A stretch of 64,000 nucleotides of DNA from Hyphomicrobiales bacterium (GTDB taxonomy: Bacteria; Pseudomonadota; Alphaproteobacteria; Rhizobiales; Rhizobiaceae): assembly GCA_900466575.1 (NCBI GenBank), contig UBMP01000012.1, forward strand, positions 108,442 through 172,441. Direction: 5' to 3'. Within the stretch, counting starts at the first letter, position 1. Every line of letters starts with the position of its first letter. Under the pieces are notes generated by a model, which saw nothing but the letters and a program-made list of their open reading frames with translations, was not told where the DNA came from and did no database searches. The position numbers and the translations under genes were made by a program. Shown piece after piece: positions 37,903-47,930 of the stretch.

Positions 37903-37942
37903 CGCCAAGTGCTGCAGCGCAGCAAGACGTCAGTACTTGGCG
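37903..37942 (-). other. Stem-loop spanning the stop codon of the metallophosphoesterase gene
   Basis: CGCCAAGTGCTG (37903-37914) pairs with CAGTACTTGGCG (37931-37942) over 12 bp with one mismatch. Read leftward, it includes the last codons and stop of the metallophosphoesterase gene. There is no T-run, so an mRNA-stabilising role is likelier than intrinsic termination. Confidence 0.5.
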
Positions 37943-38748
37943 GGCGAAGGATCGCGCTTGGCGATCTCGTAGTCCTCGTTATGCACCTGCAGCCCGTGCT
38001 CCGTCGTCACGACGATCCCATAGGCGGCCGGCTCATCGACCGAGAGCGAGGCGTCGGGCATGTCGAAAGGCATCGGCTGCTGGTGCACCGGGCTCTTGAA
38101 GATGGAGTAGGGAATGCCGCGATGCGAGCCGTTGATAGTGCGGTGGACATGGCCGGCGAAGATGTGGCGGACATTCCCGTGACTCTCGATGAGATCGTAG
38201 AAATCGCCTTCATTGATCAGCTTGATGAGGTCCATTCCGGTAAAGCCGGTCTTATGCGGCGGATGGTGCAGGAAGATGAGAACCGGTTTGCCAGCCTCCT
38301 TGGCAGATTCCAATTCGGTTTCGAGCCAGCGCATGCGCTTGTTGCAGAGAAAACCGGCATGCGTGATCGGATATTCGTAAGGCGGCGCGAAGAGAGAATC
38401 GAGGACGAGCGCGCGGCAGTCGGCAAAATCGAGCGCGCGCTGCACGAAGCCGTGCTCGTCCGTTGCCGTGTCGGTGAAGATCGACAGGAAATTCTCGCGG
38501 TTGTCGTGATTGCCGATGGCGAGCGTCAGCGGCGGCGTCAACCGGTCGAGAAGTGTCTTCAGGCGTGCGTAGGAGGCGATGTCGCCGTGGTGGGCAAGAT
38601 CGCCGGTCACGATGACACCGTCGGCGTCCGGATGATAGGTGTTGACGTGGTCGATCCCCGTTTCCAGCCGTTTGAACGGATCGAGTCCGATGATGGTCTC
38701 GCCTTCCGGGACCATATGCAGGTCGGTGAAAACAATCAGTTTTGTCAT
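37930..38748 (-). CDS. Class III metallophosphoesterase (cyclic nucleotide/glycerophosphodiester type)
   Basis: A 272-residue two-metal phosphoesterase. All five blocks of the calcineurin-like fold are visible: FTDLHMV near residue 7, VTGDLAHHGD near 47, IGNHDNREN near 78, IFLHHPPHKT near 157, and IFAGHVHRTING near 195. The overall length and motif set fit the CpdA/GpdQ class, which hydrolyses cAMP or glycerophosphodiesters. The natural substrate cannot be read from the sequence. It stands alone, transcribed leftward, before a large non-coding stretch. Confidence 0.87.
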   Translation of the reverse strand: MTKLIVFTDLHMVPEGETIIGLDPFKRLETGIDHVNTYHPDADGVIVTGDLAHHGDIASYARLKTLLDRLTPPLTLAIGNHDNRENFLSIFTDTATDEHGFVQRALDFADCRALVLDSLFAPPYEYPITHAGFLCNKRMRWLETELESAKEAGKPVLIFLHHPPHKTGFTGMDLIKLINEGDFYDLIESHGNVRHIFAGHVHRTINGSHRGIPYSIFKSPVHQQPMPFDMPDASLSVDEPAAYGIVVTTEHGLQVHNEDYEIAKRDPSPAKY

Positions 38749-39382
38749 GAAATCAACTCGTTCGGGATGTTGCGCCGACGATAACGGGGCGAAGGGATGC
38801 GGCGGCGAATGTCGCTGCCCACGACGGGTTCGTCAAGCCGTGCGAAGGGACATCCGCCACCTGGGAGACAGCGCAATGCCGCCAGTTTCCGCTCGCGGGG
38901 CGAAGGGGGCAGGGACGCGGCTGCCATGGCCTGTCTTGCGGCGCCAAGCATGCCTTCAAGGTGGGCTCAAGCGATGGTCAGTGAGGCCGACGCCAGCCTC
39001 GGCTTGCGTTAACCTCCCTTAATTTCCGGCTACTAGTTCTAGCGAGGCGAATACGTGCACGCGTCCAATTTAGGAGTTCACGGCCCCAAATTAACCTTCA
39101 GGCAAGGAATTAACCATAAAGATTAAGACGGGCCGGAGTGGGACAACTGTTTGGGTCGAACAAGGGGCAAAACCTTGGCGACTGGCGACCTGCAAATTTG
39201 ACGTGAGCGAGATGCTCTGCCGTTGAATGAAGAGGCGAAATGGGGGTTCCGGGCATGATGCTTTTCCGCTGCGCCGGGGTTGATCCGGCATGTGATTGGG
39301 GTTGATCGGCATTTGTCATGCCGCCAGCCGGACGCGGGTACATACTTCGCGGCCGCCGGGCAGGAAAAGGTCTTTCGAGATC
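38749..39382. other. 634-bp non-coding region before the chemotaxis operon
   Basis: No credible gene. The left part (38810-38960) is GC-rich. TTAA boxes occur at 39009 and 39019, then TTAACC at 39091 and TTAACCAT at 39110. Three related units beginning GGGGGTTCCGGGCAT (39242), GGGGTTGATCCGGCAT (39276) and GGGGTTGATCGGCAT (39298) lie next to the receptor start. The long leader must hold the promoter of the receptor-che operon. Confidence 0.5.
39091..39117 (+). promoter_or_regulatory. TTAACC/TTAACCAT pair upstream of the chemotaxis operon (possible CtrA site)
   Basis: TTAACC at 39091 and TTAACCAT at 39110 lie 19 bp apart. TTAACCAT is the CtrA half-site described in alphaproteobacteria, and the same pair occurs before cpaB (6822 and 6846). 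CtrA influences motility genes in several rhizobia, which makes this a plausible but unproven site. Confidence 0.4.
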
Positions 39383-41038
39383 GTGACGGTTGATCGCCTT
39401 ACCGGGTGTTCAGTGGGACGTGATTTGGAAAACGGGGCTCAAAACGATCGGACGCAGCGCCAGCAGGCAGGCAGCCTGTTCGAACGGTTGCGCTTTGCCG
39501 GTCTCGAGGCCGAGCAGACCGACTTCCTCCGCAAGCATCGTGACAGTCTCCTTCCCGAGATCGAAAAGGGTCTCAAGGCGCTGTTCGAGCGCTATCAGTC
39601 CTCTCCCGAGGCTTCCGCGCAATTCGAAAGCGACCGCCAGATCGACCGGTTGCACAGCCTCATGTCGTCACATTGGGCGGTCCTGTCGGATGCCCGCTTC
39701 GACAGTCTCTATGCCGAGCGCGTCAAGGTGCTTTCCGACGCCGAAGGCCGCATGGGGCTTGATCCACGCTGGCACATCGCGGGCCACTCCGTCGTTCTGG
39801 AACAGATGATTGCGGGCGCGCTCGCCGCCCGCTGGCCGAAGACATGGTTCGGCCGCAAACATGCAAGTGCCCAGGAAGCAGAGTCTCTGGTCAAGTCGAT
39901 CGTACGTCTCGTCATGGTCGATCTGGAAATTGCCGTGTCCTTGCGCTTCAACGAGCTGCGTCTTGGTCACAAGCAGGCGCTCAAGGAACAGCGCGAGGAA
40001 ATCGAGACCTCGACCGTCGCGCTCTTTGCCGACACCGTCGAGGCGTTGGCGAACAAAGATCTCACCGTTCGCCTGAGCACCGACGGGCCGGAAAGCTATG
40101 CAGACCTGACGCAGCGCTTCAATGAGGCATTGGATCGTCTGCGCGAGGAAATCGACGCAACCAACGTCCGTAACCGCCGGGGTTACGAATTGGCAGAGAA
40201 CGTCACGTCGCTGTCGCAGCAGGCGGCTGAAGTCGCTGCCGACTGCGCGCGCCGGATCGATCTTGGCGTGAGCGGGTTGAAGGACCTCACCGAAGGCGTG
40301 AGCCGCAATGCCGAGCGCTCCGTCGCGGCCGAACGCCATGTGGGCGAGACCCGCGTCGCGGTCGAACGCAGCGGCGAGATCGTCGGCGAAGCGATTGCCG
40401 CCATGGCCGATATCGAGGCCTCGGCTGAAAAGATCGGCGAGATCATCGGCGTCATCGACGACATCGCCTTCCAGACCAATTTGCTCGCGCTCAATGCCGG
40501 CATCGAAGCTGCCCGCGCCGGCGATTCTGGCCGCGGTTTTGCAGTTGTCGCGCAGGAAGTGCGCGCGCTCGCACAGCGGTCTGCCGATGCGGCACGTCAG
40601 ATCAAGACGTTGGTCAGCGAAACCAAATCGCAGGTCGATTCCGGCGTGCAGATGGTGGGTCGTACGCAGACGGCGATCGGCGACATCGTTCGCCAGGTCC
40701 AGGACATCAGCGCCGCTGTCACCGGTATCGCGCGCGAATCCGGCGAGCATGCGCGGGGCCTTGATCACTCCATGGCGGCTTTCGCGGAGGTCCGTCGCGA
40801 AGCCTCGCGTGGCGCGGAAATCGCGCTGAGCTCGCGGACCAAATCCGACGACCTTCATACCGTCATTCTCGAGCTCGGCGACACCATCCGTTCGTTCCGC
40901 GTGGCAACACGTGAACCCGAACGCCGCTCCTCGCCGCAGCCGAAGCGCCAGCCGACCGTTGATCTGGGCGGCCGCGACGACGACCAGCCCCGCCTCTCGC
41001 AGCCGTCATATCTTGCCGGCCTGGGAGGTGGACGATGA
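39383..41038 (+). CDS. icpA: Soluble globin-coupled chemoreceptor (IcpA-like) lacking the heme-ligand His
   Basis: A cytoplasmic methyl-accepting receptor of about 552 residues with no transmembrane helix. Residues about 30-175 are a protoglobin (globin-coupled sensor) domain; a HAMP-like linker follows, then the signalling domain with the hairpin tip [20 protein letters not shown] near residue 360. In the F-helix, [10 protein letters not shown] aligns with the heme-binding HVRIGLLPKW of HemAT, with Glu121 in place of the proximal His. So heme binding is doubtful. Position in front of cheS matches S. meliloti icpA. The GTG start is uncertain; the open frame extends 29 codons upstream. Confidence 0.87.
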
Positions 41039-41110
41039 GCCGCATGACAGCCCCGCCCGCATGCATGGCTGACGAAAACCGAACTTTGTTGCGCAATGAA
41101 GGACAACCGA

Positions 41111-41398
41111 ATGGCTAGCAAGAAACCGGCCGCCGCGAAAAGTCTGAACCTGGCTCCGGTCCTCGATCTGAACGAGGCCACGGCGCTGCATGGCAAGCTG
41201 ATGGCGCTGCGTGGCAGCGACCTGATGATCGATGCGTCCGGAGTGGAACGCGTGGGCGCGCAATGCGTCCAGGTTCTCATGGCTGCAAAGAAGAACTGGG
41301 ACGAGGACAAGATGACTTTCAAGTTTTCGAAAGTCTCCGACACCTTCACCAAGACGATGCAATTGATTGGCATCAATATCGAGCCCCTGCTGGCATAG
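41111..41398 (+). CDS. cheS: CheS, STAS-domain chemotaxis protein
   Basis: A 95-residue single-domain STAS protein: APVLDLNEATALHGKLMALR at the start, DLMIDASGVERVGAQCVQVL in the middle. In S. meliloti, CheS at this position binds CheA and speeds removal of phosphate from CheY1. AAGGA lies seven bases before ATG 41111; the in-frame ATG five codons upstream lacks this spacing. It lies between the receptor gene and cheY1, 13 bp before the latter. Confidence 0.87.
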   Translation: MASKKPAAAKSLNLAPVLDLNEATALHGKLMALRGSDLMIDASGVERVGAQCVQVLMAAKKNWDEDKMTFKFSKVSDTFTKTMQLIGINIEPLLA

Positions 41399-41411: not shown

Positions 41412-41777
41412 ATGAAAAAGAAAGTTCTTACGGTTGATGATTCCAGAACGATCCGGAACATGCTTCTCGTGACGCTGAACAATGCCGGATTCGAAACGAT
41501 CCAGGCCGAGGACGGCATCGAAGGGCTCGAAGTCCTTGAAGATTGCAATCCGGACGTCATCGTGACGGACATCAACATGCCGCGCCTCGATGGCTTCGGC
41601 TTCATCGAAGGCGTGCGCAAGAACGACAGGTTCCGCGCGATCCCGATCCTGGTCCTCACGACCGAAAGCGACGCGGAAAAGAAGAACCGCGCCCGCCAGG
41701 CCGGCGCGACCGGCTGGATCGTAAAACCGTTCGACCCGACCAAGCTGATTGATGCAATTGAGCGCGTAACGGCCTAA
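41412..41777 (+). CDS. cheY1: Chemotaxis response regulator CheY1
   Basis: A 121-residue single receiver domain. The acidic pair is in VLTVDDSRT (residues 9-10), the phosphorylation site is Asp53 in VTDINMPRLDG, the Thr is in VLTTESD, and the conserved Lys in WIVKPFDP. In S. meliloti, CheY1 serves mainly as a phosphate sink for CheY2 through retro-transfer to CheA. The ATG at 41412 follows GGAGA. Upstream in-frame codons overlap cheS and are not used. Confidence 0.93.
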   Translation: MKKKVLTVDDSRTIRNMLLVTLNNAGFETIQAEDGIEGLEVLEDCNPDVIVTDINMPRLDGFGFIEGVRKNDRFRAIPILVLTTESDAEKKNRARQAGATGWIVKPFDPTKLIDAIERVTA

Positions 41778-41798: not shown

Positions 41799-44114
41799 AT
41801 GGATATGAACGAAATCAAAGAGATCTTTTTCCAGGAGTGCGAGGAGCAGCTCGCCGAACTGGAATCGGGTCTTCTGAAGATGAATGACGGCGATCGTGAT
41901 CCGGAAACAGTCAACGCTGTTTTCCGCGCCGTTCACTCGATCAAGGGCGGCGCCGGTGCATTTGGTCTTGATGACCTTGTGGCCTTCGCCCATGTGTTCG
42001 AGACCACGCTTGATTGCGTTCGATCCAACAAGCTCGATCCCGGGCCGGAAGTGCTGAAGACGATGCTGAAGTCGGCTGACGTACTCGCCGACCTCACCGC
42101 CGCATCCCGTGATGGTGGAACGGTGGACCCGTCTCGCACCAGCGTTCTTGTGAAGGAACTCGAAGCTTTGGCAAACGGTCAGGTGCCAGCCCCGACCGCC
42201 GAAGTTCCGACGCCCGTTGCCCCGCCAGCGCCCAAGCCGGTCGCCGCCGCTCCCAAGCCGGTTGCCGCAGCGCCCACGGACGAGAGCGGCTTCCAGCCGA
42301 TACCCTTCTCCTTCGATGATTTCGGCGGGGAAGAGGCCGAAGCCCCGGCGATGGAAATTCCGCTCTGCGACGTCGTCTTCAAGCCGCGTCCGGAGCTCTA
42401 TTCCAAGGGCAATGAAGCGACCCTCCTCTTGCGTGACCTGTCGCGCATCGGCGAGATGAGCATCTATTGCGACATGGACGCCCTGCCGCCGCTCGATCAG
42501 ATGGACCCGGAAGGCGCCTATTTCTTCTGGAAGATCTCGATCCGCACCGAAAAGGGTGAAGAAGGCGTCCGCTCGGTCTTTGAATTTGCCGAATGGGATT
42601 GCGACCTCGAGGTCAAGGTCCACGAAGTGGCAACTGAAGGCGAAGAGGACGAAGAGCTGCCGATGCAGCCGGTTCCCTTTGATCTTTCGGCCCTCGACGA
42701 TATCGAGGAAGACCACGATCATCACGAAGATCACGCAGATCATCACGAAGAAGTCGCTGCCGCGATCGAAGCCGCGAAGGTCGCGACCTCCGTCATCAGC
42801 ATGGCCGCCACGACACAGCAGGCAGCGCCTGCCGCCCAGGCCGCCGTCGCAAAGCCTGCCGCCGCAGCCGCTGCCGGCAATGCTGAATCCTCGGGCTCCG
42901 GTGGCGCCAATCCGACGATCCGCGTCGATCTGGACCGCGTCGACCGCCTGATCAACCTCGTCGGCGAACTCGTCATCAATCAGGCGATGCTCTCGCAGAG
43001 CGTGATTGCCAACGAGACCTCCGGCGCGACCACGATCAACACCGGTCTAGAAGAGCTGCAGCAGCTGACCCGCGAAATCCAGGACAGCGTGATGGCCATC
43101 CGCGCGCAGCCTGTGAAGCCGGTCTTCCAGCGCATGTCGCGTATCGTTCGCGAAGTCGCCGACATGGTCGGCAAGTCTGTCCGCCTCGTCACCGAAGGCG
43201 AGAATACCGAAGTGGACAAGACCGTCATCGACAAACTCGCCGAGCCGCTGACGCACATGATCCGCAACGCCGTCGACCACGGCCTGGAAATGCCGGAAAA
43301 GCGCGCAGCACTCGGCAAGAACCCGGAAGGCACGGTCAAGCTCTCGGCCAAACATCGCTCGGGCCGCATCGTCATCGAGCTTTCGGACGACGGCGCCGGC
43401 ATCAATCGCGAGAAGGTGCGCCAGAAGGCGATCGACAACGACCTCATCACGTCTGAAACCAACCTTTCGGATGAAGAGATCGACAACCTGATCTTCCATC
43501 CGGGCTTCTCCACTGCCGACAAGATCACCGACGTATCGGGTCGCGGCGTGGGCATGGACGTGGTCAAGCGCTCCATCCAGGCGCTCGGCGGCCGCATCAA
43601 CATCTCCTCGCGCCCCGGTCAGGGCTCGACCTTCACCATGAGCTTGCCGCTCACGCTCGCCGTCCTCGACGGCATGGTGGTCACGGTAGCCGGCCAGACG
43701 CTGGTGGTCCCGTTGACGGCCATCGTCGAGACGCTGCAGCCGGAGGCCTCCGCCATCCACTCCTTCGGTGCAAGCCAGCGGCTCATCTCGATCCGCGACA
43801 GCTTCTGCCCGCTCGTCGATGTCGGCCGCATCCTGAACTTCCGCTCCATGCAGGCCAATCCGACCGACGGCGTGGCGCTTCTGGTGGAATCCGAAAGCGG
43901 CGGCCAGCGTGCCCTCATGGTCGATGCGATCCAGGGCCAGCGCCAGGTCGTCATCAAGAGCCTTGAAGCCAACTACACCCATGTTCCGGGTATCGCCGCC
44001 GCAACCATCCTCGGCGATGGCCGCGTGGCGCTCATCCTGGACGTGGATGCGGTGGTCGCAGCCTCGCGCGGACAGGCGCTGGGCGGTGATGGCGCATTGG
44101 CGGCTGCAAGCTGA
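41799..44114 (+). CDS. cheA: Chemotaxis histidine kinase CheA
   Basis: A 771-residue CheA. In order: P1 Hpt domain with the phosphorylated His46 in AVHSIKGGAGAF; an Ala/Pro linker; a P2-type CheY-binding domain (about 185-290); a His/Asp-rich linker at residues 305-318; P3 dimerisation near 370-430; P4 kinase with HMIRNAVDHGLEMP (N-box), DDGAGIN and GRGVGMDVV; and P5 CheW-like domain to the end. It autophosphorylates under receptor control and passes phosphate to CheY1, CheY2 and CheB. The His-rich linker is unusual. Confidence 0.96.
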   Translation: MDMNEIKEIFFQECEEQLAELESGLLKMNDGDRDPETVNAVFRAVHSIKGGAGAFGLDDLVAFAHVFETTLDCVRSNKLDPGPEVLKTMLKSADVLADLTAASRDGGTVDPSRTSVLVKELEALANGQVPAPTAEVPTPVAPPAPKPVAAAPKPVAAAPTDESGFQPIPFSFDDFGGEEAEAPAMEIPLCDVVFKPRPELYSKGNEATLLLRDLSRIGEMSIYCDMDALPPLDQMDPEGAYFFWKISIRTEKGEEGVRSVFEFAEWDCDLEVKVHEVATEGEEDEELPMQPVPFDLSALDDIEEDHDHHEDHADHHEEVAAAIEAAKVATSVISMAATTQQAAPAAQAAVAKPAAAAAAGNAESSGSGGANPTIRVDLDRVDRLINLVGELVINQAMLSQSVIANETSGATTINTGLEELQQLTREIQDSVMAIRAQPVKPVFQRMSRIVREVADMVGKSVRLVTEGENTEVDKTVIDKLAEPLTHMIRNAVDHGLEMPEKRAALGKNPEGTVKLSAKHRSGRIVIELSDDGAGINREKVRQKAIDNDLITSETNLSDEEIDNLIFHPGFSTADKITDVSGRGVGMDVVKRSIQALGGRINISSRPGQGSTFTMSLPLTLAVLDGMVVTVAGQTLVVPLTAIVETLQPEASAIHSFGASQRLISIRDSFCPLVDVGRILNFRSMQANPTDGVALLVESESGGQRALMVDAIQGQRQVVIKSLEANYTHVPGIAAATILGDGRVALILDVDAVVAASRGQALGGDGALAAAS

Positions 44115-44143: not shown

Positions 44144-44611
44144 ATGACGATTGGTGCAAAAAATCTGACCAAGGGTGCCCGGGAGCTGATCGCTTTCCGC
44201 ATTGGCGATCAGGAATTTTGCGTGAACATCATGATCGTTCGCGAAATCCGTGGCTGGACGAAGGCGACACCGATGCCGCATTCGCCACACTACATGATGG
44301 GCGTGATCAACCTTCGTGGCGCCGTGCTGCCGATCATTGATCTCTCCCTGCGCCTCGGGATGAAACCGGCGGAGCCGAACCCTCGGCACGTCATTATCGT
44401 GGTGCAGATTGGCGAGAAGATCGTCGGTCTGCTCGTCGATGCTGTCTCGGACATCCTGAGCATCACCGACGACAATATTCAGCCGATACCCGAGGTCTCC
44501 GCGGAGTTCGTGCGTGCGTTTGCACGCGGGATCATCGCCGTGGAAGGCCGTATGATCTGCCTGCTCGAGCTCGATGCGCTTGTCCAGGGTAACGAAAGCG
44601 AAGCTGCATGA
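44144..44611 (+). CDS. cheW: Chemotaxis coupling protein CheW
   Basis: A 155-residue CheW that links receptors to CheA. The two SH3-like halves are seen: [19 protein letters not shown] near residue 14, then [19 protein letters not shown] near 48, and [16 protein letters not shown] near 88. Its stop overlaps the cheR start (ATGA), so the two are coupled. Confidence 0.95.
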
Positions 44612-45516
44612 CGAGTACCCTTGCGATAGATCCGAAACTGCCGGGCGACGAGTTCCTCGCGAACGGCGAGTTTCCGCTGACCCGGCGGGACCTTGCCGAT
44701 ATTGCTGCGATGATCTACGCCGACGCCGGTATTTTCCTGAACGAGACCAAGGCCTCGCTCGTCTATTCGCGTCTGTCGAAGCATATCCGCAAGCTCGGGC
44801 TGCGCAGCTTCCGTGAATATTGCAATCTCGTCGCCTCGCCGGAAGGTGCTGGCGAGCGGCGCGAAATGCTGTCCTACCTCACGACCAATTTCACCCGCTT
44901 TTTCCGCGAGAACCACCATTTCGAGCACCTGCGCGACGAGGTCATGCCGGACCTGTTTGCCCGTGCCAAGGCCGGCGGTCGCGTCCGCATCTGGTCGGCT
45001 GCCTGCTCGGACGGCCAAGAGCCTTATTCGATCGCGCTGACCATTCTGTCGATGATGCCGAACGCGGCGGATTACGATCTGAAGATCCTTGCCACCGACA
45101 TCGACCCCAAGATCCTCGCCATCGCTCGCGAAGGCGCCTATGACCAGAACGCGCTGGAAACCGTGAGCGCCGACATGCGCCGGCAGTGGTTCAAGCCGGT
45201 CGAAAACGGCGCGCGCCAGAAATGGAAGATCGACGATCGCGTCAAGCGCCTGATCACGTTCAACGAGCTGAACCTGATGACCGACTGGCCGTTCAAGGGC
45301 AAGTTCGACGTCATCTTCTGCCGCAACGTCGTCATCTATTTTGACGAGCCGACACAGACGCGCATCTGGTCACGCTTCTCCGATCAGCTGCTGCCCGGCG
45401 GCCATCTCTATATCGGCCATTCCGAGCGCGTGACCGGCGATGCCAAGAACCGCTTCGACAACATCGGCATCACGACCTACAAGCTGCAGGGCGCAGCTGC
45501 CAGGAGGCCTGCATGA
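44608..45516 (+). CDS. cheR: Chemoreceptor methyltransferase CheR
   Basis: A 302-residue S-adenosylmethionine-dependent methyltransferase that adds methyl groups to receptor glutamates. The N-terminal helical domain has [20 protein letters not shown]; the SAM-binding domain has [17 protein letters not shown] near residue 130, [11 protein letters not shown] near 153 and [14 protein letters not shown] near 235. It overlaps cheW upstream and cheB downstream by four bases each. Confidence 0.96.
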
Positions 45517-46571
45517 GCGCGCCGGCCCGAGTTCTGGTCGTCGATGACTCGCCCACCATGCGTGGGCTGATTTCGGCCATCCTCAGTTCCGATCCCGATG
45601 TCGACGTCGTTGGCCAGGCCGGCGATGCGATGGAAGCCCGCGAGGCCATCAAGCGCCTCAATCCCGATGTTGTAACGCTGGATATCGAAATGCCCGAGAT
45701 GAACGGGCTCGATTTCCTCGAGAAGATCATGACGTTGCGGCCGATGCCGGTCATCATGGTATCCTCCCTGACCCATCGCGGCGCGGATGCGACGCTGGCG
45801 GCCCTTGAGATCGGTGCGTTCGACTGTATCGGCAAGCCGGTGCCGGGCGAGCCGCGTCCGTTCCACGACCTCGCCGAAAAGGTGAAGGCCGCCGCACGCT
45901 CGAAATACCGCTACGGCGGCCCGGTTGCCGCTCCGCGGCGCGAGCTGCCCGCCAACATCAACAGCGAAAACGCCTATCGCGTCGGACGCAAGATCGTGGC
46001 GATCGGATCCTCGACCGGTGGCGTCGAGGCGCTGATCACCGTGCTGCAGAATTTCCCGGTCAACTGCCCGCCGACGGTGATCACACAGCACATGCCGCCG
46101 ACTTTCACCAAGAGTTTTGCCGAACGGCTGAACCGCCTCTGCGCTCCCGTTGTCGAGGAGGCCCGTGACGGCGCCCGCCTCGAGATCGGCAAGATCTATC
46201 TTGCACCGGGCGGAGAGCGGCATCTGCAGGTCGTCAATGCCAGCGCGCCGGCCTGCCGGCTGCTGGAAACCGCGCCCGTCAATGGCCATCGTCCCTCCGT
46301 CGATGTCCTGTTCGACTCCGTGGCCGAGCTGGCCGGGCGCAATGCCGTTGGCGTAATTTTGACAGGTATGGGCCGCGATGGTGCGGCTGGTCTGCTCAAG
46401 ATGCGCTACGCTGGGGCAAGAACGATCGGCCAGGACGAAAAATCCTGCGTCGTTTACGGAATGCCAAGAGTTGCCCACGAATTAGGAGCGGTCGAACGAC
46501 AATTGCCGCTCGGGCACATCGGCGAGGAAATCTTGAAAATGACAGCAGCCCGGAAAGAAGGAAGCGAATAA
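45513..46571 (+). CDS. cheB: Receptor methylesterase CheB
   Basis: A 352-residue protein with an N-terminal receiver (Asp57 in [11 protein letters not shown]) and a C-terminal esterase. The catalytic triad is Ser167 in [12 protein letters not shown], His in [11 protein letters not shown]-like segment [10 protein letters not shown], and Asp in [11 protein letters not shown]. Phosphorylation by CheA relieves inhibition and receptors lose methyl groups. Its stop shares one base with the cheY2 start (TAATG). Confidence 0.96.
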
Positions 46572-46960
46572 TGTCTATTGCAGAGAAGATCAAAGTTCTG
46601 ATCGTCGACGATCAGGTGACAAGCCGTCTGCTCCTGAGCGACGCGCTCACGCAGCTTGGCTTCAAGCAGATCACGGTCGCTGGCGACGGCGAGCAGGGAT
46701 ACAAGATCATGTCCCAGGCTCCCCATCATCTGGTGATCTCCGACTTCAACATGCCGAAGATGGACGGGCTCGGGTTTCTCCAGGCCGTGCGCACCAATCC
46801 GGCCACGAAGAAGGCGGCATTTATCATGCTCACGGCGCAGGGTGACCGCGCTCTGGTGCAGAAGGCGGCGCAATTGGGCGCCAACAACGTGCTCGCAAAG
46901 CCGTTCACCATTGAAAAGATGAAGGCCGCCATTGAGGCCGTATTTGGATCGCTAAAATGA
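46571..46960 (+). CDS. cheY2: Main chemotaxis response regulator CheY2
   Basis: A 129-residue receiver. DD pair in LIVDDQVTS, phosphorylation site Asp58 in [12 protein letters not shown], Thr in IMLTAQGD, Lys in [11 protein letters not shown]. In S. meliloti, phospho-CheY2 acts on the flagellar motor to lower its speed. It overlaps cheD by four bases. Confidence 0.94.
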
Positions 46961-47517
46961 ATCTTGAGCTCCCGCCGCGCCGGATCAATATCATCCAGGG
47001 TGAATACAAGGTCTCCAACGACCCGAACGTCGTCATCACGACGATCCTGGGCTCGTGCGTGGCGGCGTGTATTCGCGATCCTGCCGCGGGCGTCGGGGGT
47101 ATGAACCATTTTCTTCTGCCCGGCAGCACGGAAGCGTTGGCCGCCGGCGGAGATGCCACGCGCTACGGCGTGCACCTCATGGAGCTTCTGATCAACGGGC
47201 TGTTGAAGCAGGGTGCACGCAAGGACCGCATGGAAGCGAAGATCTTTGGTGGGGCAAAGACCATCGCCAGTTTCTCCAACGTGGGAGCGCAGAACGCAGA
47301 GTTTGCGGCGCGCTTCCTTAGGGATGAAGGCATCAGCGTTGTCGGTTCGTCGACGGGGGGCGAACACGGACGCAAGCTGGAATTCTGGCCCGTCTCGGGC
47401 CGCGCACGCCAGCACGCGCTGACCGGGGTCGAAACACAGCGCACCGTCGCACTCGAAACACGTCCGGTCGCGCCGGCGCCGAAACCGGCGGTCGATACGT
47501 CGGTCGAATTCTTCTAA
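46957..47517 (+). CDS. cheD: Receptor glutamine deamidase CheD
   Basis: A 186-residue deamidase. The catalytic Cys34 is in [14 protein letters not shown], His51 in GGMNHFLLP, and Thr28/29 lies before. The core ends near residue 160. A tail follows that ends in TSVEFF, similar to the last residues of CheT (DFEFF). CheD deamidates receptor Gln to Glu before methylation. Confidence 0.94.
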
Positions 47518-47537
47518 ATTTGGTATTGGGGGGGCGG

Positions 47538-47930
47538 ATGCGTCTCGATAAGGAAATCTCTCAGATGCAAGTAGACGAAGCCCTCCCGGAAGTACTGATG
47601 CGGATCGTGTCGGAATTGCACGATGTCGCCTATCTGATCGAACGCATCGAGCCGACGATCGCCAACACGGAACATCCGGGTGTGCTCAACGAGGCCGACC
47701 GCATCAAGGTCCTGCAGGGCATTGACCTTGCAGTGCAAAAGACACGTGGCCTCGCCGAATTCATCGACACGATCACCTCCGGAATCCCGGAAAATTGGCT
47801 TGTCGACACGACAGTCGCACTCAGCCTCGTCAAGCTGGCGGATATGCAGAAGGCGCTCAGCAACGCATCTGCCCGACACGGCCATTCACAGCCGATCAAC
47901 AAGGCATCCGGCGACTTCGAATTCTTCTGA
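47538..47930 (+). CDS. cheT: CheT, rhizobial chemotaxis protein with a CheZ-like DxxxQ motif
   Basis: A 130-residue, mostly helical protein at the end of the che operon, where S. meliloti has cheT. The motif GIDLAVQKTR contains Asp63 and Gln67 with the D-x3-Q spacing of the CheZ phosphatase active site. The C-terminus is GDFEFF. In S. meliloti CheT has been linked to CheY dephosphorylation and to CheR. ATG 47538 follows a run of seven G and is preferred to the in-frame TTG six codons upstream. Confidence 0.87.
   Translation: MRLDKEISQMQVDEALPEVLMRIVSELHDVAYLIERIEPTIANTEHPGVLNEADRIKVLQGIDLAVQKTRGLAEFIDTITSGIPENWLVDTTVALSLVKLADMQKALSNASARHGHSQPINKASGDFEFF

Follow-up and report, generated by a model that had tools for sequence, protein, structure and literature searches.

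A globin-coupled chemoreceptor at the head of a rhizobial che operon belongs to a clade that lacks the heme residues as a set

The stretch of DNA analyzed here (the window, 64,000 nucleotides in length) carries an icpA-type chemoreceptor gene followed by chemotaxis genes on the same strand:

39425..41038, plus strand: icpA-type chemoreceptor gene, 537 aa, inferred TTG start, within the longest open frame (39296-41038)
41096..41398, plus strand: STAS-domain protein, second gene of the operon
41412..41777, plus strand: CheY-type response regulator
41799..44114, plus strand: CheA
44144..44611, plus strand: CheW
44608..45516, plus strand: CheR
45513..46571, plus strand: CheB
46571..46960, plus strand: second CheY-type response regulator
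46957..47517, plus strand: CheD

Translation probably starts at the TTG at 39425, because the near orthologues (93-95% identity) become conserved from the residues LENGAQ onward and diverge upstream of them, and because the frame of one orthologue (L090) differs there. With this start the residue at the proximal F8 position is Glu107. The preceding long frame (37930-38748) lies on the opposite strand and therefore the receptor gene heads the che operon; the preliminary description had said so, and the gene order bears it out. After CheD lies a small gene (47532-47930) without a Pfam match, which by its position we take to be cheT. The window gene stands where an IcpA is expected, leading a che operon that contains CheY, CheA, CheW, CheR, CheB, CheY and CheD; the che gene order of R. 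leguminosarum is given in the passages cited from PMC7617929.

The encoded protein is a methyl-accepting chemotaxis protein with the following parts:

39476..39958, plus strand: Protoglobin (globin-coupled sensor) domain, PF11563, Pfam 104.2 bits against a cut-off of 25
40028..40147, plus strand: HAMP-like segment, 16.6 bits, below the Pfam cut-off of 25
40358..40795, plus strand: MCP signalling domain, PF00015, 148.8 bits

It was described beforehand as soluble, and this agrees with a highest 19-residue Kyte-Doolittle mean of 1.68, located inside the globin domain. The AlphaFold (AF2) model of the globin domain (pLDDT 88.1, pTM 0.83) predicts a protoglobin, or globin-coupled sensor, fold. HemAT and AfGcHK were its top matches in a Foldseek search of the PDB, and VIA-align gave Z scores of 16.8-17.0 against the globin-coupled sensors 2w31, 5ohe, 1or4 and 1or6 (17.0 for 2w31 and 5ohe; 16.9 for 1or4, over 151 residues with an rmsd of 2.7). 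In the match to HemAT, residues 12..172 of the model lie on residues 28..178 at 15% identity. By sequence (phmmer), the best PDB match is 7o0i (E 4.6e-6), a chain named anti-anti-sigma factor that we take to be a stressosome RsbR; the window protein itself combines PF11563 with an MCP output. No IcpA structure is among the three PDB sequence matches.

The residues discussed below were placed by alignment and are given by their HemAT columns. Close relatives of the window gene are called IcpA-type, and the other relatives His-type or Arg-type by their residue at F8.

39584..39586, plus strand: Phe54 at B10, column of HemAT Tyr70 (distal Tyr)
39671..39673, plus strand: His83 of the HW pair, kept in 111/111 IcpA-type and 127/128 His-type sequences
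39734..39736, plus strand: Ser104, column of HemAT 120, Gly in His-type and Ser/Ala in most IcpA-type rows
39743..39745 (GAA), plus strand: Glu107 at F8, column of HemAT His123 (proximal heme ligand)
39773..39775, plus strand: His117, column of HemAT Tyr133, H/Q/R/L/N/E in the IcpA group and Ser in the Arg type
39785..39787, plus strand: His121, column of HemAT 137

The plus-strand positions 39743-39772 encode a ten-residue stretch of the F-helix, inside the open frame 39296-41038 and inside the Pfam Protoglobin match. In a gap-free phmmer alignment (query 46-129 on HemAT 1or4 62-145; E 1.1, not significant alone) Glu107 falls on His123, and the same register is given by the alignment with a paralogue from the same genome and by the start of the structural match. 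This paralogue (L001:1480-2988, contig 11) reads HARIGLEPRW at the matching stretch and keeps the His. The earlier claim that Glu replaces the proximal heme His is confirmed in this way, whilst two of its details needed correction: the number Glu121 implies a GTG start at 39383, and the HemAT stretch quoted as HVRIGLLPKW is in fact HLRIGLLPKW. The rest of the F-helix, which was said to be well kept, is so in GLDPRW but not in HemAT columns 119 and 120, where the Ile-Gly of most His-type rows has become Leu-Ser/Ala in the IcpA type. Where heme-binding sensors have a proximal His at F8 and a distal Tyr at B10, the window protein has Glu107 and Phe54. Glu at F8 is already published: the passages cited from PMC4648194 (2015) report it in 21 rhizobial globin-coupled sensors, with the caution of a possible alignment artefact.

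The survey of close relatives combined three sources. When 151 genomes were drawn evenly from the family, 30 loci (window gene included) had at least 49% identity, followed by a gap to 38% or less. From a scan of named genomes the best 80 of 351 relatives were kept, those nearest to the window, which makes this a biased sample; CheA lies downstream of the receptor in 78 of these 80, and the remaining two are stretches of only 6.9 and 3.6 kb. One further locus (L063) came from an order search. Together these are 111 IcpA-type loci, which is not a count of species: L034 and L091 gave the same values, as did L035 and L090, and each pair is probably one genome present twice. Some counts refer to 113 rows, which include three copies of the window gene; the two extra copies were dropped for the 111.

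At F8 the 30 loci of the even draw have E 25, Q 2, C 2 and A 1, and the 80 nearest named loci have E 71, A 5, Q 2, S 1 and G 1. Over all 111 the counts are E 97, A 6, Q 4, C 2, S 1 and G 1, and the residue is never His. Of the loci with Agrobacterium in their title, A. rubi (L140) and strain a22-2 (L162) carry Glu, and A. tumefaciens UMA610 (L166) and genomosp. 13 (L168) carry Ala. The preliminary description raised the question of whether Glu is conserved among rhizobial IcpA proteins: it is the commonest state but it is not fixed, with other residues in 14 of the 111 loci. Together with the Arg of four related heads, described below, this rules out Glu as a strictly conserved new catalytic or ligand residue and does not support it as the defining feature of the group.

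The features that are constant in the IcpA group lie elsewhere: the loss of the distal Tyr, the loss of Tyr133 and the gain of a His at the HemAT-137 column. B10 is Phe in 102 and Met in 11 of the 113 rows and never Tyr. Column 133 is never Tyr either (H 61, Q 39, R 9, L 2, N 1, E 1). The HemAT-137 column is His in 107 of the 111 loci and Gln in four, and it is Tyr in all 128 His-type rows. Columns 92 and 95 are Leu in all four Arg-type rows and, with few exceptions, in the IcpA-type rows. From globin topology we take the columns discussed here to line the pocket, with 137 as G8. The 133 other rows, a few of which are one gene fetched twice, have H 128, R 4 and K 1 at F8, Y 127, F 4, H 1 and one gap at B10, and Y 119, H 8, S 4 and F 2 at column 133.

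When 51 IcpA-type rows (thinned at 90% identity) and 120 His-type rows were contrasted over 163 columns, the most divergent column was 137, followed by 70, 123, 120 and 119, and column 133 ranked 13th. The chance that columns 70, 123 and 133 all fall in the top 13 is 4e-4, which is a rough guide, since the cut was set by the lowest-ranking of these three columns and both groups are clades; some of the high columns may reflect descent alone. Rows with fewer than 130 of the 163 columns filled were left out of this ranking and of the trees.

Beyond the IcpA-type loci, the family draw gave 73 other matches (the own-genome paralogue included) in 72 regions, which with one order-search region make 73 loci and 74 rows. 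His without CheA downstream is found in 63 rows (the order-search row included), His with CheA in six, Arg with CheA in four and Lys without CheA in one, and the linkage to CheA may be undercounted here because some contigs end early. The six che-operon heads L186, L200, L202, L212, L215 and L223 keep His/Tyr/Tyr. The four Arg-type heads (L174, L176, L177 and L183) have Arg at F8, Phe at B10, Ser at 133 and His at 137. The Lys row (L240, a 551-residue frame from 1988), from the genus of the window, is a very divergent protoglobin with the longest branch in the globin tree.

The IcpA-type and Arg-type receptors form one clade. In a globin tree of 124 rows, set to leave out the F8, B10 and 133 columns, this clade holds 41 rows, three of the four Arg-type rows among them, with support 100/96 from a bootstrap that had not settled. 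All 41 lack the His at F8, and 82 of the remaining 83 rows keep it. The clade is found again in a tree built from the sequence that follows the globin (21 rows, 99/89), for which 18 IcpA-type rows were drawn at random and two rows shorter than 200 residues were left out. Redundant rows had been thinned at 93% (one step), at 90% (for the divergence ranking) and, ahead of the globin tree, at 82, 75 and 45% in the three groups. By this thinning the row of the window gene dropped out of both trees, where L034 (93% identical) stands in for it, and so did one Arg-type row.

The two trees disagree on where this clade is placed. In the globin tree its nearest His-type rows are L067 and L084 (99/83 and 92/92), whereas in the C-terminal tree it sits beside all His-type rows of the family together, and the His-type heads are separate from it. 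Constraining L186, L202, L212, L215 and L223 to join the Glu/Arg clade, together with L216, which is nested among these heads, was not rejected (AU p 0.205); L200 was excluded from the constraint and stands apart from the other five His-type heads in both trees. F8 changes at least eight times inside the clade, the change between Glu and Arg included, and ten times over the whole tree; the corresponding whole-tree counts are three for B10, four for column 137 and 16 for column 133.

A residue other than His at F8 is not unique to IcpA. The tail of a class-wide search, sampled for its low scores, gave 20 low-scoring protoglobin regions and from these 19 rows, of which 13 have no His in the F8 column (L242-L245, L248-L250, L253-L257 and L259), in weak alignments with the residues taken from the printed strings. 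LASAFYD is common to four of these alphaproteobacterial sequences at the F8 stretch, and two more are close to it. By their sequences it is possible that they are further heme-less sensor globins.

The globin domain of the IcpA-type receptors is under strong purifying selection. Against five loci the dN/dS of the globin part is 0.037-0.051 and that of the signalling part 0.027-0.044; two pairs of the five gave identical values (L034/L091 and L035/L090), which leaves about three independent comparisons. Values of this size rule out a pseudogene or a relic globin. D89-D93 and D113-W116 are invariant in 67 rows. As for paralogues, 25 of the 30 IcpA-type genomes of the even draw have a second protoglobin, and in each of the 25 there is at least one with His; in the other five none was found at E 1e-6, so that a division of labour between two globin receptors is not universal. 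The second protoglobin MCP of the genome studied here (L001:1480-2988) has all the heme residues (H, Y, Y) and, by its sequence and by analogy with Atu1027 in Agrobacterium, is likely to be the O2 receptor of its genome.

Globin-coupled receptors are commonly described as O2 sensors. The HemAT-Bs and Atu1027-type aerotaxis receptors resemble the window protein in fold (Z about 17), in being soluble, in a PF11563 match above the cut-off and in the kind of output domain, yet they keep the F8 His, and the window protein lacks the F8 His, the B10 Tyr and Tyr133. The His-type rows of this survey also retain the B10 Tyr and mostly have Tyr at 133. In A. tumefaciens C58 the aerotaxis receptor is Atu1027, of the His type, and H100A abolishes its function; the same passages of PMC10851874 note that three residues found in every globin are missing from Atu0514, which may not be a typical globin receptor. 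With the rhizobial IcpA and Atu0514 the window gene shares gene kind, operon position, domain order and family. The change of the pocket as a set, the Arg-type relatives and the new His are what is added here; together with the tests against an alignment artefact they are new, in that the literature passages cited do not contain them.

The residue pattern agrees with that of non-heme sensor globins of the RsbR and pXO2-61 type. The N-terminal globin of B. subtilis RsbR (PDB 2bnl; Z 12.1) has, like the window domain, lost the F8 His within a sensor globin. In it Ala replaces this His and no heme is bound, although some homologues keep heme (PMC4476040, passages cited), and the same residue, Ala, is found at F8 in A. 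tumefaciens UMA610. The likeness has its bounds: RsbR has a STAS output and no helices C and D (PMC4476040), unlike this MCP of the protoglobin family. The pXO2-61-type domains (PDB 3pmc; Z 11.6) share the sensory globin fold but are of a different family; MabR has a non-heme globin sensor domain, and the related pXO1-118 is listed among non-heme globins (PMC11617747, passages cited). The globin domain of HemAT was reported to bind ethanol with heme taking no part (PMC7542364, passages cited), so a globin of a globin-coupled sensor can answer a small non-gas ligand without heme, yet HemAT still carries its heme. Our literature search, with subscription papers mostly outside its reach and therefore a weak negative, found no heme measurement on any IcpA and, on heme-free chemoreceptor globins, nothing beyond the papers cited here; a 2026 aerotaxis review does not mention Atu0514 or IcpA.

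The explanation that we favor, and that we regard as probable, is that the receptor is a heme-free sensor globin whose pocket was remodelled as a set after a single loss of heme and which passes a cue other than O2 to CheA. The cytoplasmic receptor would descend from a HemAT-like globin-coupled sensor that bound heme. The heme site would have been dismantled as a unit in the common ancestor of the IcpA-type heads (mostly Glu) and the Arg-type heads: the proximal His was lost, the distal Tyr became Phe, Tyr133 was lost and a new His appeared at the 137 column, whilst the globin fold and the signalling part were retained. Such a receptor should not bind heme by the normal route and should not sense O2, and we infer a mode like that of RsbR, in which the globin fold would hand a conformational cue to the signalling hairpin and CheA. 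The cue may come from a small ligand, not a gas, that occupies the remodelled pocket, or it may reflect the state of the array, and O2 sensing would be left to the His-bearing paralogue where one is present. The suggestion of the preliminary description that the fold may sense something other than a heme-bound gas holds to the extent that a His-ligated heme function is probably absent, but Glu is not essential to it. A more specific version, which we put forward tentatively, is that the former heme pocket was rebuilt to hold a new ligand around His121, F8 and column 133 forming a variable rim, so that the head receptor would sense a cytosolic metabolite, a proton, a metal or another cofactor.

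One possible option, which overlaps with the heme-free reading and to which we give a minor though real share, is that the globin binds no ligand at all and serves as a dimerisation or packing module, the receptor being a constitutive member of the array core that keeps mixed arrays stable and sets the activity of CheA. This fits the linkage to the che operon in 78 of the 80 named loci. It fits as well the reported phenotype of the che-operon receptor Atu0514: its deletion weakens chemotaxis to four chemical types that its domain reportedly does not bind (PMC8466855), with sucrose, valine, citrate and acetosyringone as the responses affected (PMC10851874), and the authors of PMC8466855 discuss mixed receptor clusters, all according to the passages cited. 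A structural role would explain this phenotype just as a sensory role would. A pure spacer, however, would not require a new, fixed His where the heme pocket used to be, nor would it have to hold the region from E to G as strictly as the invariant D89-D93 and D113-W116 indicate.

Heme might also still be bound through a swapped axial ligand, either the new His121 or the kept His83, which we consider unlikely. His121 is common to the Glu and Arg types, both of which lack the F8 His, it is nearly fixed among IcpA-type loci, it is close to the proximal side in sequence, and the predicted fold is intact; globins with an unusual ligand site, such as N-HGbRL, do exist (PMC4476040, passages cited). 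Against this, His121 is replaced by Gln in four of the 111 loci and the distal Tyr is lost as well. The Leu residues at columns 92 and 95 in both types would fill the distal side of the pocket, where we take these columns to lie. His83 is not a new ligand, because it is just as conserved in the His-type relatives. The preliminary description had named another His at the proximal position as the finding that would speak against it; the register gives Glu107 as F8, in its favor, and His121 is the residue that tells the other way.

That Glu107 itself ligates the iron, in a carboxylate-ligated globin, is very improbable in spite of Glu being the commonest residue at F8 and of the homology models in the passages cited from PMC4648194, which put H/E at 1.77 to 5.56 Å from the iron, since F8 changes so often within the clade and is Ala, Ser, Gly, Cys or Gln in same-group loci and Arg in the related heads. 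Least credible of all is the artefact feared in PMC4648194, with the true proximal His elsewhere and the F8 column misassigned: the identity to HemAT is low in the structural match and the sequence match is weak, but the F-helix motif is in gap-free register with HemAT, with the own-genome paralogue and with the His-type rows, and in the window protein the six residues before Glu107 and the six after it include no His.

With the heme-free sensor globin as the favored reading, the receptor probably responds to a cue other than oxygen or is built into the receptor array as a fixed core component. In many rhizobia and agrobacteria the receptor encoded in the che operon is a member of a clade that lacks the heme residues as a set and is still under selection, which corrects what would be expected of this gene and bears on the caution printed with the 2015 report. 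The loss of the heme residues also fits the mapping of aerotaxis in Agrobacterium to the other globin receptor. If the pocket has indeed been rebuilt as a ligand site, the His-, Arg- and Glu-type heads would show a switch from gas to non-gas sensing at one operon position; as they stand, these three types of head offer a testable change from heme to non-heme sensing.
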